A stretch of DNA of 64,000 nucleotides from Amnibacterium kyonggiense (GTDB lineage Bacteria > Actinomycetota > Actinomycetes > Actinomycetales > Microbacteriaceae): NCBI RefSeq assembly GCF_004364555.1, contig NZ_SOAM01000001.1, forward strand, positions 1,116,001-1,180,000, given 5' to 3'. Each line of letters opens with the position of its first letter. Within the stretch, counting starts at the first letter, position 1. Position numbers and translations under genes: made by a program. This document shows, piece by piece, positions 573 to 63,545 of this stretch. The notes beneath the pieces are model-generated. The model made no database searches. It worked only from the letters and a program-made list of their open reading frames with translations, and was not told where the DNA came from.

Positions 573-629
573 GGTTCACGGATACGGAGTTCCGCGCGCG
601 GAGCGCCCGGAACTCCGTATCCGTGAACC
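573..629. terminator. Long perfect hairpin (21-bp arms) after the oxidoreductase gene
   Basis: Arms at 573-593 and 609-629 are exact reverse complements around a 15-nt GC-rich loop. There is no downstream T run. It sits between two genes on the same strand. The arm outer part (GTTCACGGATACGGAG) recurs exactly in the hairpin at 63491-63544, so this is a repeated element and not merely a chance terminator. A termination or mRNA 3-prime-end role is inferred from position. Confidence 0.7.
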
Positions 630-6817: not shown

Positions 6818-6868
6818 CCGTTCTGAAGGAGTTCCTGCGCTGCCTGCGCAGGAACTCCTTCAGAACGG
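6818..6868. terminator. Perfect 23-bp hairpin between convergent genes
   Basis: Arms 6818-6840 and 6846-6868 are exact complements with a 5-nt loop (TGCCT). It separates the converging YdeP-like gene (stop at 6815) and moeA (stop at 6871), leaving only 2 nt on each side. It is a likely bidirectional terminator although there is no T tract. Confidence 0.75.
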
Positions 6869-21476: not shown

Positions 21477-21527
21477 GTTGCCACTTCGGACACGTTTCGG
21501 GGCCGAAAGCGTGCTCGAAGTGGCAAC
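21477..21527 (+). repeat. 51-nt stem-loop repeat, copy A
   Basis: The left arm starts GTTGCCACTTCGGACACG and the right arm ends in CGAAGTGGCAAC at 21527, bounding an imperfect stem of about 24 bp. It lies 42 bp after the araB stop, in the convergent space with the endonuclease gene. Its right arm deviates from the other copies (AGCGTGCTCG in place of ACGTGTCCG), so it seems to be the most decayed copy. Confidence 0.85.
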
Positions 21528-21559
21528 CCCGTCCGTCGCGGGGACGGCTCCTGCTCGGC

Positions 21560-21610
21560 GTTGCCATTTCGGACACGTTTCGAGGCCGAGAACGTGTCCG
21601 AAGTGGCAAC
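21560..21610 (+). repeat. 51-nt stem-loop repeat, copy B
   Basis: This copy has the same length and orientation as copy A, 32 bp downstream of it. The left arm is GTTGCCATTTCGGACACG and the right arm ACGTGTCCGAAGTGGCAAC. The C-to-T change in the left arm faces an unchanged G in the right arm, so a G-U pair keeps the RNA stem. Confidence 0.88.
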
Positions 21611-21627
21611 CCTGTCGCGCGACAGGG
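21610..21627. terminator. Small hairpin at the endonuclease 3-prime end
   Basis: CCCTGTCG and CGACAGGG form an 18-nt palindrome directly abutting the stop codon of the minus-strand gene at 21628 and sharing one base with repeat copy B. It is a short terminator candidate. Confidence 0.4.
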
Positions 21628-22533
21628 TCAGCGGTGGCGGAGGAGGGCGCGCTCGACGCGCGCGATCGTCTCGGAGAGACGGGCTCGCTGGTCGTCGGCC
21701 GTCACTCGGATCACGCGCCAGTCGAAGTCGGTGAGGCGCTCATACCGCACGACGTCGTACCGCCACTGGGTCTGGTCGGTCCGGTGCTGATCGCCCTCGA
21801 TCTCGATCCACACGCGGAGCTCGAGGTAGACGAGGTCGCCCTCGGTCGTCCGCCCGTCCGGGCCGCGCCATCGGTGGTTCATCAGCGGCTCGGGCAGCCC
21901 AGCGGCGACGAGTCGCAGTCGGAACCGGGACTCCTCCGCTGAGCGCGAGCCGATCCGGATGCGCGGCGCGACCCGCTGCAGCTTCCGGGAGTGCGGCCGA
22001 TGCGGGTCGGAGAACGCGGAGACGATCCGCTCGAGCATCACCGCGCTCGAGGCCCGGTGCGGAGGCAGCAGGCTCTCCGCGGCGACGACCAGATCGTCCT
22101 CGCTGAGCAGGGAGGCGAGCTGGCAGAGCGTCTCGATCGCATTCGCGACGCGCATGCCTCGGCGCTCCACGACGAGTCCCGGGCGGTCGACGATGTGGTG
22201 CCCGCGGACGCGCGCGTCACGCGGTGCGCGGTGCGATCCGGTGGGCGCCTTGATGACGGACACGTGCAGCTCGAGGCACCGCTCGATCGCGAGCGGCAGC
22301 CAGATGTCGTGGATGATCGCCGCAGTGACGTGGCTGAAGAACTCGTGGAGCGCCATCTTCGGCAGGTAGGCCCTGCACAGCTCGAGGACCGTCTCGGGGT
22401 CACGACCCGCCCGGACACCGCGGAACGGACGCCGCAGCCGCCGTCCGTGCACCCGGCGTCGACCGACGCCCGCGCGTCGGGCCTCCGCGGTCGTGAAGGG
22501 CTGGTCGAGGAAGGGGGCGAGCGGGTCCGGCAT
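21628..22533 (-). CDS. AbiEi-like N-terminus plus DUF559/Vsr-like endonuclease domain protein
   Basis: This 301-residue protein has an N-terminal winged-helix-like segment (FTTAEARRAGVGRRRVHGRRLRRPFRGV, residues 13-40) resembling AbiEi-type antitoxin-like proteins of actinobacteria. The C-terminal PD-(D/E)XK-like domain (about residues 200-285) shows Glu201, Asp233 in EGDLVYLE, the paired glutamates 244 and 246 in WIEIEGDQH, and His250, the arrangement of DUF559/Vsr-type nucleases. A nucleolytic role is inferred from fold signatures only. No AbiEii toxin gene is adjacent, so it is an orphan. Two 51-nt stem-loop repeats lie on each side of the gene. ATG 22533 was chosen because upstream codons are arginine-rich and unsupported. 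Confidence 0.75.
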   Translation of the reverse strand: MPDPLAPFLDQPFTTAEARRAGVGRRRVHGRRLRRPFRGVRAGRDPETVLELCRAYLPKMALHEFFSHVTAAIIHDIWLPLAIERCLELHVSVIKAPTGSHRAPRDARVRGHHIVDRPGLVVERRGMRVANAIETLCQLASLLSEDDLVVAAESLLPPHRASSAVMLERIVSAFSDPHRPHSRKLQRVAPRIRIGSRSAEESRFRLRLVAAGLPEPLMNHRWRGPDGRTTEGDLVYLELRVWIEIEGDQHRTDQTQWRYDVVRYERLTDFDWRVIRVTADDQRARLSETIARVERALLRHR

Positions 22534-22668
22534 GGCCGACGAGCGTGCCGCACGACCCCGCCGGCGCGACCCGGATCGGCGAGCGAGGACCGGCGAGCAT
22601 TGATCGGGCGCCTGGGGAGGAGCGGAACACCGACCCGCGCCGCTCGCTCGGGCTCTCGATCTCTCGGG

Positions 22669-22719
22669 GTTGCCACTTCGGGCACGTTTCGAGCGCGAAG
22701 ACGTGTCCGAAGTGGCAAC
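22669..22719 (+). repeat. 51-nt stem-loop repeat, copy C
   Basis: The left arm is GTTGCCACTTCGGGCACG and the right arm ACGTGTCCGAAGTGGCAAC. It carries A-to-G at one left-arm position, which faces T in the right arm and keeps a G-U pair. The 8 nt before the copy (CTCTCGGG) are shared with copy D, so C and D look like recent duplicates including flank. Confidence 0.9.
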
Positions 22720-22762
22720 TCGATGCGATGTGCCCGGCTGGATGCGGGGCCGAGCTCTCGGG

Positions 22763-22813
22763 GTTGCCACTTCGGGCACGTTTGCGGCCCCGAAACGTGT
22801 CCGAAGTGGCAAC
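22763..22813 (+). repeat. 51-nt stem-loop repeat, copy D
   Basis: This copy has the same orientation and length as C, 43 bp further on, with the same CTCTCGGG flank and left arm. Its loop differs (GCGGCCC). It ends 29 bp before the GTG of the GH43 gene, placing it in the 5-prime leader or promoter of that gene and making a pure terminator role unlikely. Confidence 0.9.
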
Positions 22814-22842: not shown

Positions 22843-23769
22843 GTGACCGACGCCGCTGCGCTGCTGCTCGCCTACTTCCTCGACGAGCACCTCGCGGACG
22901 GGGAGGAGATCCGCTTCGCCGTGAGCGACGGGGCGGACGTCACGCGCTGGACCGAGGTGCCGATCCGGATCCGTTCGGAGGTCGGGGAGCGCGGCCTCCG
23001 CGATCCCTTCCTCATCCGGCGCCCGGACGGCGGCGCGGTCCTGCTCGCGACCGACCTGCGCGTCCTCGCCGACGGCGACTGGAGCCGCGCGGTCACGCGC
23101 GGCAGCCGCGCGATCGCGGTGTCGACCTCCGACGACCTCGTCTCCTGGTCCGCGCCGAGACGCACGACAGTCGCGCCGCCCGAGGCCGGGAACGCGTGGG
23201 CGCCGAAAGGCGCGTGGGAGGACGACCGGTACGTCGTCCGCTGGGCCTCGGCGCTGTACGGGCCGGGCGACCGCCGTCCCGACGACTCGCACCAGCGCAT
23301 CCTCCGCGCCGAGTCGACCGACCTCGAGCATTGGTCGGCTCCGGTCGTCGAGCTCGACCCGGGGCGCGACGTCATCGACGTGCAGCTCGTCCGGGAGGGC
23401 GGCGCGGTCCACCGGTTCTCCGTCCCGAAGCCCGAGCACCAGGCGGCCGCCGGCTTCCCGCGGCACGAGCGGGGGGCGGACCCGGACGCGGACGACTGGA
23501 CGGTCCTCGCCCCGGCGATCGGCGACGGGGTGATCGCGCGCGGCGAGGGGCCGGCCGTCGCGCAGGCGCCGGACGGCCGGTGGCTGCTGCTCGTCGACGA
23601 GTTCGGGCTCTCCGGCTACCACCTCTTCGCGGCGGACTCGCTCGACTCCGGCGACTGGCGCGAGCTGCCCGACGTGCGGCTCCCGGAGGGCGCCCGGCAC
23701 GGCAGCCTGCTCCGGATCACCGCGGAGGAGCTCGACCGGCTCAGGGCGGCGGCCGGATCCCCTCGCTGA
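22843..23769 (+). CDS. Glycoside hydrolase family 43-like protein
   Basis: This 308-residue five-bladed propeller protein has GH43 hallmarks. LLAYFLDEHLADGEEIRFAVSDGADVTRW is followed by GLRDPFLIRRPDGG with the RDP acid-modulating Asp, then ISVSTSDDL-type repeats, NAWAPKGAWEDDRYVVRW and EGPAVAQAPDGRWLLLVDEF with the putative acid Glu. In most relatives the fourth motif reads WAPE; here it is WAPK. No signal peptide is present, so it would act in the cytoplasm on arabino- or xylo-oligosaccharides. GTG 22843 follows GGGTGGAGG. Its last 29 bp overlap the convergent P-loop gene. Confidence 0.8.
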   Translation: MTDAAALLLAYFLDEHLADGEEIRFAVSDGADVTRWTEVPIRIRSEVGERGLRDPFLIRRPDGGAVLLATDLRVLADGDWSRAVTRGSRAIAVSTSDDLVSWSAPRRTTVAPPEAGNAWAPKGAWEDDRYVVRWASALYGPGDRRPDDSHQRILRAESTDLEHWSAPVVELDPGRDVIDVQLVREGGAVHRFSVPKPEHQAAAGFPRHERGADPDADDWTVLAPAIGDGVIARGEGPAVAQAPDGRWLLLVDEFGLSGYHLFAADSLDSGDWRELPDVRLPEGARHGSLLRITAEELDRLRAAAGSPR

Positions 23770-53662: not shown

Positions 53663-53709
53663 GCGCTCTTCGTCTTGGAGGAACTCCGTTCCTCCAAGAC
53701 GAAGAGCGC
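53663..53709. terminator. Perfect 21-bp hairpin between convergent genes
   Basis: Arms 53663-53683 and 53689-53709 are exact complements with a 5-nt loop (CTCCG). It separates the aldehyde dehydrogenase end (53637) and the GH3 stop (53758). No T tract is present. Confidence 0.72.
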
Positions 53710-63484: not shown

Positions 63485-63490
63485 CCCGAT

Positions 63491-63544
63491 CCTGTTCACG
63501 GATACGGAGATCCGGCTCGCCGGATCTCCGTATCCGTGAACAGG
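63491..63544. terminator. Perfect 25-bp hairpin, second copy of the 573-629 element
   Basis: Arms 63491-63515 and 63520-63544 are exact complements with a 4-nt loop (CTCG). The outer part GTTCACGGATACGGAG equals the arm of the hairpin at 573-629. It lies between the convergent Gfo/Idh/MocA genes, a bidirectional terminator position. Confidence 0.8.
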
Positions 63545-63545
63545 A

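Follow-up and report, generated by a model that had tools for sequence, protein, structure and literature searches.

We analysed a 64,000-nt stretch of the Amnibacterium kyonggiense genome (contig NZ_SOAM01000001.1, positions 1,116,001 to 1,180,000; hereafter the window), in which four short palindromes bracket a gene for a predicted nuclease. The gene lies on the minus strand at 21628..22533 and encodes a protein of 301 aa. The palindromes, read on the plus strand, are A (21477..21527), B (21560..21610), C (22669..22719) and D (22763..22813), and they form one doublet on each side of the gene. A is the outer member of the downstream doublet, and the end of B is 17 nt from the nuclease stop codon; C lies 135 nt upstream of the nuclease start codon, and the gene following D starts 29 nt on (GTG at 22843, plus strand). 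Re-reading the DNA confirmed the description given in the original prediction: each copy is 51 nt long, starts with GTTGCCA and ends with GTGGCAAC, the spacers are 32 nt (A to B) and 43 nt (C to D), and C and D are each directly preceded by the same flank, CTCTCGGG. Eight arm matches with at most three mismatches were found in the window, compared with a mean of 0.09 in 100 shuffled sequences, and plus-strand folding of the four copies gave z-scores of -5.3 to -9.6. An Rfam search returned no family at the gathering score; four sub-threshold microRNA matches were taken as chance.

The N-terminal part of the enclosed protein is weakly AbiEi-like, and the C-terminal part (about residues 198-299) corresponds to a Vsr-fold DUF559/MTES_1575 domain. 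In a Pfam search the protein matched MTES_1575 with an E value of 4.9e-4 and DUF559 with 8.8e-4, both under the curated cut-off (19.6 bits against 20.6 and 20.5 against 38.2). Each of the two profiles matched 16 of 18 divergent homologues at E <= 0.01. The PADLOC AbiEi profile matched the window protein with an E value of 0.0043 and the best of the 18 homologues with 1e-7 to 3.3e-8; Pfam AbiEi_4 matched 3 of the 18. An AlphaFold model of the window protein had a mean predicted local distance difference test score (pLDDT) of 94.4. The best Foldseek match to it in the PDB was the catalytic domain of the homing endonuclease I-Bth0305I (3r3p), with a template-modelling (TM) score of 0.74-0.75 of the target and a probability of 1.00, at a modest E value of 0.034-0.043; no structure was matched at E <= 0.001. 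We take I-Bth0305I to belong to the family called EDxHD. A profile search against structures gave 3hrl, an endonuclease-like protein, with an E value of 3.4e-10, and 3r3p with 0.0036. Eight residues were invariant across the 18 homologues, including D233, E244, D260 and R276 of the nuclease domain. On these data the C-terminal domain has a Vsr-type fold and conserved acidic residues.

Seven Amnibacterium genomes, including the window's own (G000), were compared. They contained 62 candidate nuclease genes, of which 51 were carried on and 50 were testable. The 11 dropped candidates (six frames of more than 1200 aa, and five matches that were long, split or broken) had shown no palindrome pair in a first scan. 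In the flank test, the flank before a gene was aligned with the flank after it, and the threshold was the 99th percentile of 381 control open reading frames (ORFs). The threshold was exceeded by 37 of the 50 genes, by at most 1% of the control ORFs and by 0.8% of 1500 trials with mismatched flanks; enrichment beside this nuclease family, the subject of the original prediction, was therefore strong. The first scan, which covered palindromes of 44-61 nt, gave 32 of 62 pairs with a score of at least 0.7 and 30 with at least 0.79; the pairs at L109, L085 and L091 (0.70-0.71) were wrong or doubtful. Several of the genes missed by that scan turned out to be flanked by a matching pair of longer hairpins, up to about 120 nt. 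A 400-kb control sequence yielded 70 palindromes and 10 pairs at gene-like distance, none of which matched, but the palindrome thresholds differed (16/20 in the control; 14 in the test, with one copy at 15 or more), so that the flank test is the fair comparison. The bracketing palindromes are roughly 45-120 nt long, with arms beginning GTTGCC, GTTCAC, TGCTCAC and others, and they differ from gene to gene save among close relatives (for example TTCACGGATACGGAG, TTGCTCACGCTTCT, TGCTCCGGATCC and TTCCGTTTTGAAGG). A second protein subfamily, with an EVDG/EFDG/EADG C-terminal motif and an EKRREDEVR-like stretch (L125, L126, L128, L129, L132, L133, L135 and L137), is likewise bracketed, by palindromes with other arms. 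These results showed that two matching copies of a gene-specific palindrome enclose many AbiEi-like/Vsr-fold nuclease genes.

Copies of the window palindrome also occur away from the nuclease. Its own genome holds ten full copies, all of 51 nt: A-D and six others (E-J; L018-L021), located singly on contig 1, singly and as a pair on contig 2, and as a pair on contig 4. No window-type nuclease was found within the 8.5-9 kb loci of these six, as expected of dispersed copies. Among E-J, two same-sense pairs lie 33 and 21 nt apart, resembling the A-B and C-D doublets. The shared orientation claimed for A-D extended to all ten copies, which have the same sense on the plus strand of their contigs, with the caveat that a palindrome inherently has little orientation. 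When 984 kb of the own genome were scanned with mismatches tolerated, seven copies of this family were returned, each with 1-3 mismatches and all of 51 nt. A covariance model built from the ten copies recovered all of them together with a second related family of about 52 nt (CTTGCCACTTCTCGGCC...). Applied to 60 genomes, the model matched six at E <= 0.01, all from the same genus; the 53 genomes from other genera gave no match. A scan of 84,980 species genomes with the outer arm returned 23 stretches, and the same architecture was found in Haematomicrobium sanguinis, Pseudonocardia eucalypti and Microbacterium sp. Root166.

The same 984 kb contained 175 palindromes, which formed 10 clusters of at least three members. 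Five of these clusters, including the three largest (17, 7 and 7 members), matched nuclease-flanking palindromes. A pattern search of the seven genomes found the GTTCACSGATACGGAG family in G000 alone, where it has 24 copies, including two next to its nuclease; the position written S was G on both arms in 18 copies, C on both in five and mixed in one. In G000 the TGCTCACGCTTCT (TGCTCAC) family was represented by 15 copies, every one with TTGCCGC; G002 had 13, every one with TGGACGC, and the other five genomes had none. None of these 28 copies mixed the two arms, although the search pattern, which fixed 34 of the 38 arm positions, accepted mixtures. The palindromes beside each species' nuclease carry that species' arm. 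All 28 copies were 53 nt long, though 46-64 nt had been allowed, and their 15-nt loops were identical at only 43% and 58% of positions. In the mismatch-tolerant scan of the 984 kb, the TGCTCAC family gave three copies with no mismatch in 38 arm positions, and no copy with 1-10 mismatches. Among the genes fetched, nucleases bracketed by palindromes of these two families occurred only in those genomes. Thus, in the three families tested, further copies of the palindrome are dispersed in the same genome, and among the seven genus genomes solo copies are confined to those in which a nuclease with that bracket was detected. The window itself carries two solo palindromes of a second family (GTTCACGGATACGGAG...), at 573..629 and 63490..63545, and the cognate nuclease of this family lies elsewhere in the genome (G000:C2:790455).

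Bracketing was not confined to the genus. The PF18741 profile matched 48 of 149 genomes, spread over the phylum, at E <= 1e-6. From the 128 matches listed, 50 with frames of about 280-440 aa were sampled over the genomes, and 47 were testable, here against a null of mismatched flanks and not of control ORFs. Scores above the maximum of 1000 mismatched pairs (40) were obtained for 23 of the 47, and 15 exceeded the genus threshold of 56; the passers were mostly hairpins. In the three distant genomes identified by the outer-arm scan, 11 of 20 homologues scored above 44 and 10 above 56, with 4/4 bracketed in Haematomicrobium, 6/12 in P. eucalypti and 1/4 in Root166. Both of two homologues on Arthrobacter megaplasmids were bracketed. 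If a solo copy depends on its nuclease, a window-type bracketed nuclease is expected in each of the three distant genomes; it was found in one (Haematomicrobium, L327). The link between palindrome and nuclease, tentative in the original prediction, was upheld and proved more general than guessed, extending over the genus, the phylum, distant genomes and megaplasmids.

We also compared the arms of 32 copies drawn from several genera. Their outer six pairs (GTTGCC/GGCAAC) were nearly invariant, and the inner arm and its partner changed together: 93% of cells were paired, compared with 80% after shuffling (maximum 84%). Doubly changed cells numbered 96, against a shuffled mean of 37 and a maximum of 55; this is no count of events, as related copies are counted several times. 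The compensatory excess that had been foreseen was therefore strong across genera, and the arms change jointly while the loop varies. With enrichment beside the nuclease family strong as well, the outcome that would have refuted the original prediction was not observed. In the ten own copies alone, covariation was not above that of shuffled copies. The claim that arm changes in A-D remain compatible with G-U pairing held for these four, with seven G.T and one A.C among 84 arm cells. It did not hold for the other genomic copies: in five of the six (F-J) the right arm has CC instead of GT, which breaks two pairs, and the ten copies together have 10 G.T and 11 A.C. Over the 32 copies, G.T (19) and A.C (24) were again about equal, a weak test since palindromes can be transcribed from either strand. 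The proposed selection on an RNA stem was thus not supported; symmetry at the DNA level suffices, and nothing points specifically to RNA.

Orthologous sites were also compared. In the TGCTCAC family, three of 14 G000 loci have an orthologous G002 locus, and a fourth G000/G002 pair has only a 126-bp inverted match in common. At two of the three orthologous sites, neither of them at the nuclease, the palindrome has the arm of the respective species, which looks like concerted change; at one of the two, G000 additionally has a palindrome of another family. In another genus of the same class (g55), an element lies between a gene that we take from its sequence to be rpoC and the next gene. At the same site, relatives have the terminator alone (G299), the gene plus palindromes (others) or one solo palindrome: that of G337 has the outer but not the inner arm in common with the element, and those of G294 and G225 belong to another family. 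The comparison places the insertion, with flanks too diverged for reading a target-site duplication. In g55 the palindrome after rpoC (L251, 1229-1288) encloses a smaller stem, AAAAGCCCCCGC, that resembles the relatives' rpoC terminator, and this bracketing palindrome may double as a terminator or may have captured one. Both at the rpoC site and at the window locus the nuclease gene is intergenic, not inside an intron, intein or gene. Comparison of the syntenic pair L358 (G002:C1:750999-757200) and L344 (G000:C1:977608-981651) revealed about 2.1 kb that is present in G002 and absent in G000, comprising two-component-system-like genes between two palindromes of the same family next to the nuclease, as if the segment had been lost or gained through recombination between the palindromes.

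Taken together, these observations suggest that the four repeats and the enclosed gene are probably one unit of a palindrome-nuclease system with a nuclease of Vsr/homing-endonuclease fold. In its genomic arrangement this system would resemble a REPtron, and gene and repeat appear as if they formed a mobile or self-maintaining system. AbiEi binds an inverted repeat (11 bp-N27-11 bp, 49 bp in total) in its own promoter (PMC3985639), which suggests the N-terminal part as the palindrome reader and the nuclease domain as the nicking or cutting part. The AbiEi-like part would recognise the arms of its own palindrome, as a double-stranded operator or as an extruded hairpin, and the Vsr-fold part would nick or cut there. 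Repair could then copy or re-copy the palindrome, so that it would reach new intergenic sites and its arms would stay alike; if one arm were repaired against the other, the loops would be free to drift. The palindromes on both sides would serve as the ends of the element and as the source of solo copies.

Several results weigh against this reading. Binding, cutting, copying and mobility are inferred. The flank test was not passed by 13 of the 50 genus genes or by 24 of the 47 sampled from the phylum, and a few of the passers (L280, L267 and L269) are poor hairpins. P. eucalypti and Root166 have window-type solo palindromes, yet none of their 16 homologues was found to be so bracketed. Half of the own-genome palindrome clusters (5/10) match no known nuclease flank. 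The uniform arms of the TGCTCACGCTTCT family are largely a product of the search pattern, and the arms of the GTTCAC family are not uniform (15 copies in 984 kb, ranging from 46 to 57 nt in length and from 0 to 8 in mismatches). The G000 nuclease of the TTGCTCACGCTTCT/TTGCCGC family (G000:C1:979259-980089) has one in-frame TAG, and the TTGCCGC solo copies are intact despite it. The three orthologous TGCTCAC sites imply that some copies or sites are old. For 75 elements, a rank Mantel test comparing the similarity of the proteins with that of the palindromes found no correlation across all pairs (r -0.06, with 1881 of 2000 permutations as high). A tail test restricted to close relatives gave 25 of the top 30 pairs, against a permutation maximum of 9 (p 0.0002), but this test was devised after the Mantel null, which makes its p value exploratory, and many of the pairs may be orthologues. 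The tail test was null within genomes (1/10, p 0.44), and paralogues at 50-60% normalised similarity have mostly unrelated palindromes.

The chief rival is that the palindromes are only double-stranded operators of the AbiEi-like part, through which the protein represses its own gene and others; such sites would be immobile, with their origin and upkeep due to selection on regulation. The AbiEi-like N-terminal part and the inverted repeat that AbiEi binds in its own promoter (PMC3985639) fit this explanation, as does the constant length of 51 or 53 nt with free loops in two families, which would match a pair of half-sites a set distance apart. In the GTTCAC family, however, the length varies, and one palindrome of each bracket lies downstream of the gene. 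The dispersed TGCTCAC copies are mostly at non-orthologous sites, with no partly degenerate copies in 984 kb, unlike usual operators; the rpoC site has solo copies where a relative has none; and the conserved nuclease residues would be left without a role. We therefore regard an operator-only function as unlikely, while still the strongest of the alternatives. Mobility of the nuclease gene alone is less likely again. On that account, a free-standing homing endonuclease gene would have entered and duplicated pre-existing REP-like palindromes that were spread by something else. The best structural match is indeed to a homing endonuclease, the rpoC site has gene-free solo palindromes where a relative has the gene plus palindromes, and in two genomes with window-type solo palindromes the cognate nuclease was not found. 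Within the genus, in contrast, solo copies follow the gene that they bracket, down to the species-specific arms, and none of the seven genomes yielded a Y1 transposase, the enzyme known to spread REPs.

Two further explanations seem very improbable to us. The palindromes could be ordinary gene-end hairpins, terminators or mRNA stabilisers, that stand beside the gene by chance. Several TGCTCAC-family copies do have a stop triplet within 25 nt (judged by eye, uncounted), and the terminator-like inner stem of the post-rpoC palindrome in one genome points the same way. This explanation is disfavoured by the matching, gene-specific pairs on both sides, which control ORFs rarely show, by the position of D ahead of a start codon, by the lack of a T-run after the window copies and by the absence of an Rfam match at the gathering score. 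An element acting as RNA, with its stem selected as, for example, a small RNA or an antitoxin RNA, would account for the stable folds, the compensatory changes across species and the preponderance of G.T over A.C in A-D. It is at odds with the balance of the two mismatches in the larger sets, with the lack of covariation among the ten own copies and with the two pairs broken in half of them.

The system-level reading of gene and palindrome as one unit can be compared with known systems. A repetitive extragenic palindrome (REP) or REPIN family together with its REP-associated tyrosine transposase (RAYT, TnpA_REP) gene constitutes a REPtron (PMC3733652; PMC6006769; PMC8049555). As in a REPtron, the gene for a DNA-cutting enzyme is flanked by palindromes whose copies are dispersed in the same genome, there is one family per enzyme, and the enzyme is rarely found on plasmids or phages. 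The differences are that the enzyme here combines a Vsr-fold nuclease with an AbiEi-like part, whereas RAYT is a Y1 HUH transposase; that the palindromes are about 45-120 nt long, compared with 20-40 nt for REPs, and have no GTAG or CGTC foot; and that many nuclease-palindrome pairs occur per genome. REPs with CGTC are reported to lack a dedicated transposase (PMC3733652). The Y1 transposase profile (PF01797) matched none of the seven Amnibacterium genomes and 6 of 14 control genomes. The suggested resemblance to REPs and bacterial interspersed mosaic elements (BIMEs) therefore stands in the sense of a REP-like family with a cognate enzyme, and fails in the strict sense, for want of a GTAG or CGTC foot and of a detected Y1 transposase. 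The word 'Actinobacteria' did not occur in the main text of either of two REP surveys searched for it. With AbiEi, the system has in common the weakly AbiEi-like part and a long inverted repeat adjoining the gene; it differs in that no AbiEii gene was seen alongside, a nuclease domain is fused, and palindromes stand on both sides and are dispersed. The likeness to I-Bth0305I (PDB 3r3p) lies in the fold of the C-terminal domain, and the differences are the location outside introns and inteins, the bracketing palindromes and the extra N-terminal part. The nuclease domain appears to belong to the same family as the DUF559/MTES_1575 Vsr-like nucleases (PF04480, PF18741; for MTES_1575 see PMC3710099). 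No description of bracketing palindromes was found for them in the portions of the open-access literature searched.

The neighbours of the nuclease gene are an FGGY kinase gene, a gene without a Pfam match and a P-loop kinase-like gene, with no AbiEii toxin gene among them. A Pfam scan of the in-frame translation of the gene after D (GTG 22843) found no family. The araB gene is present in five of the seven genus genomes, and the nuclease adjoins it in G000 and G001 only; the window nuclease homologues of G002 and G004 are located elsewhere. With the nuclease beside araB in two of five araB-bearing genomes, conserved synteny was rejected as the sole cause of the arrangement at the window locus. 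Among 72,556 plasmid records the window protein had 2 matches at E 1e-10, and among 50,697 phage records a single one at E 1e-6, so that carriage by phages or plasmids was set aside as nearly absent. Two further palindromes with 20/20 arm pairs were observed in the window. One of 51 nt at 6818-6868 (CCGTTCTGAAGGAGTTCC...) resembles a nuclease bracket of G002 (L101: TTCCGTTTTGAAGGAGTTC), and L215 has a similar palindrome; its cognate nuclease was not identified in the own genome. The other, of 47 nt at 53663-53709 (GCGCTCTTCGTCTTGGAGGAACTCC...), is possibly a solo member of another family. One of the clusters without a known nuclease flank, CCCGAACCACCCACAC..., comprises three copies (for example at L179, 13258 and 17095, and at L185, 9081).

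Among short palindromes associated with the enzyme gene that they bracket, REP families are the best known; the enzyme there is described as a Y1 transposase, and an unrelated nuclease fold here displays the same genomic logic. A bolder proposal, which we advance tentatively and with somewhat less than even confidence, is that of a separate, phylum-wide class of repeat-nuclease systems, unrelated by descent to REP/RAYT. In each, an AbiEi-type DNA-binding part fused to a Vsr/homing-endonuclease-fold nuclease would act on a palindrome private to the paralogue and would copy its two arms or continually re-template one against the other, the loop being left to drift. If this is true, one genome would harbour many mutually independent palindrome populations. 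The many differing nuclease-palindrome pairs per genome offer a ready-made panel for the study of recognition, spread and concerted evolution, and they suggest what the proteins of a common gene family, so far labelled only DUF559 or AbiEi-like, may act on.

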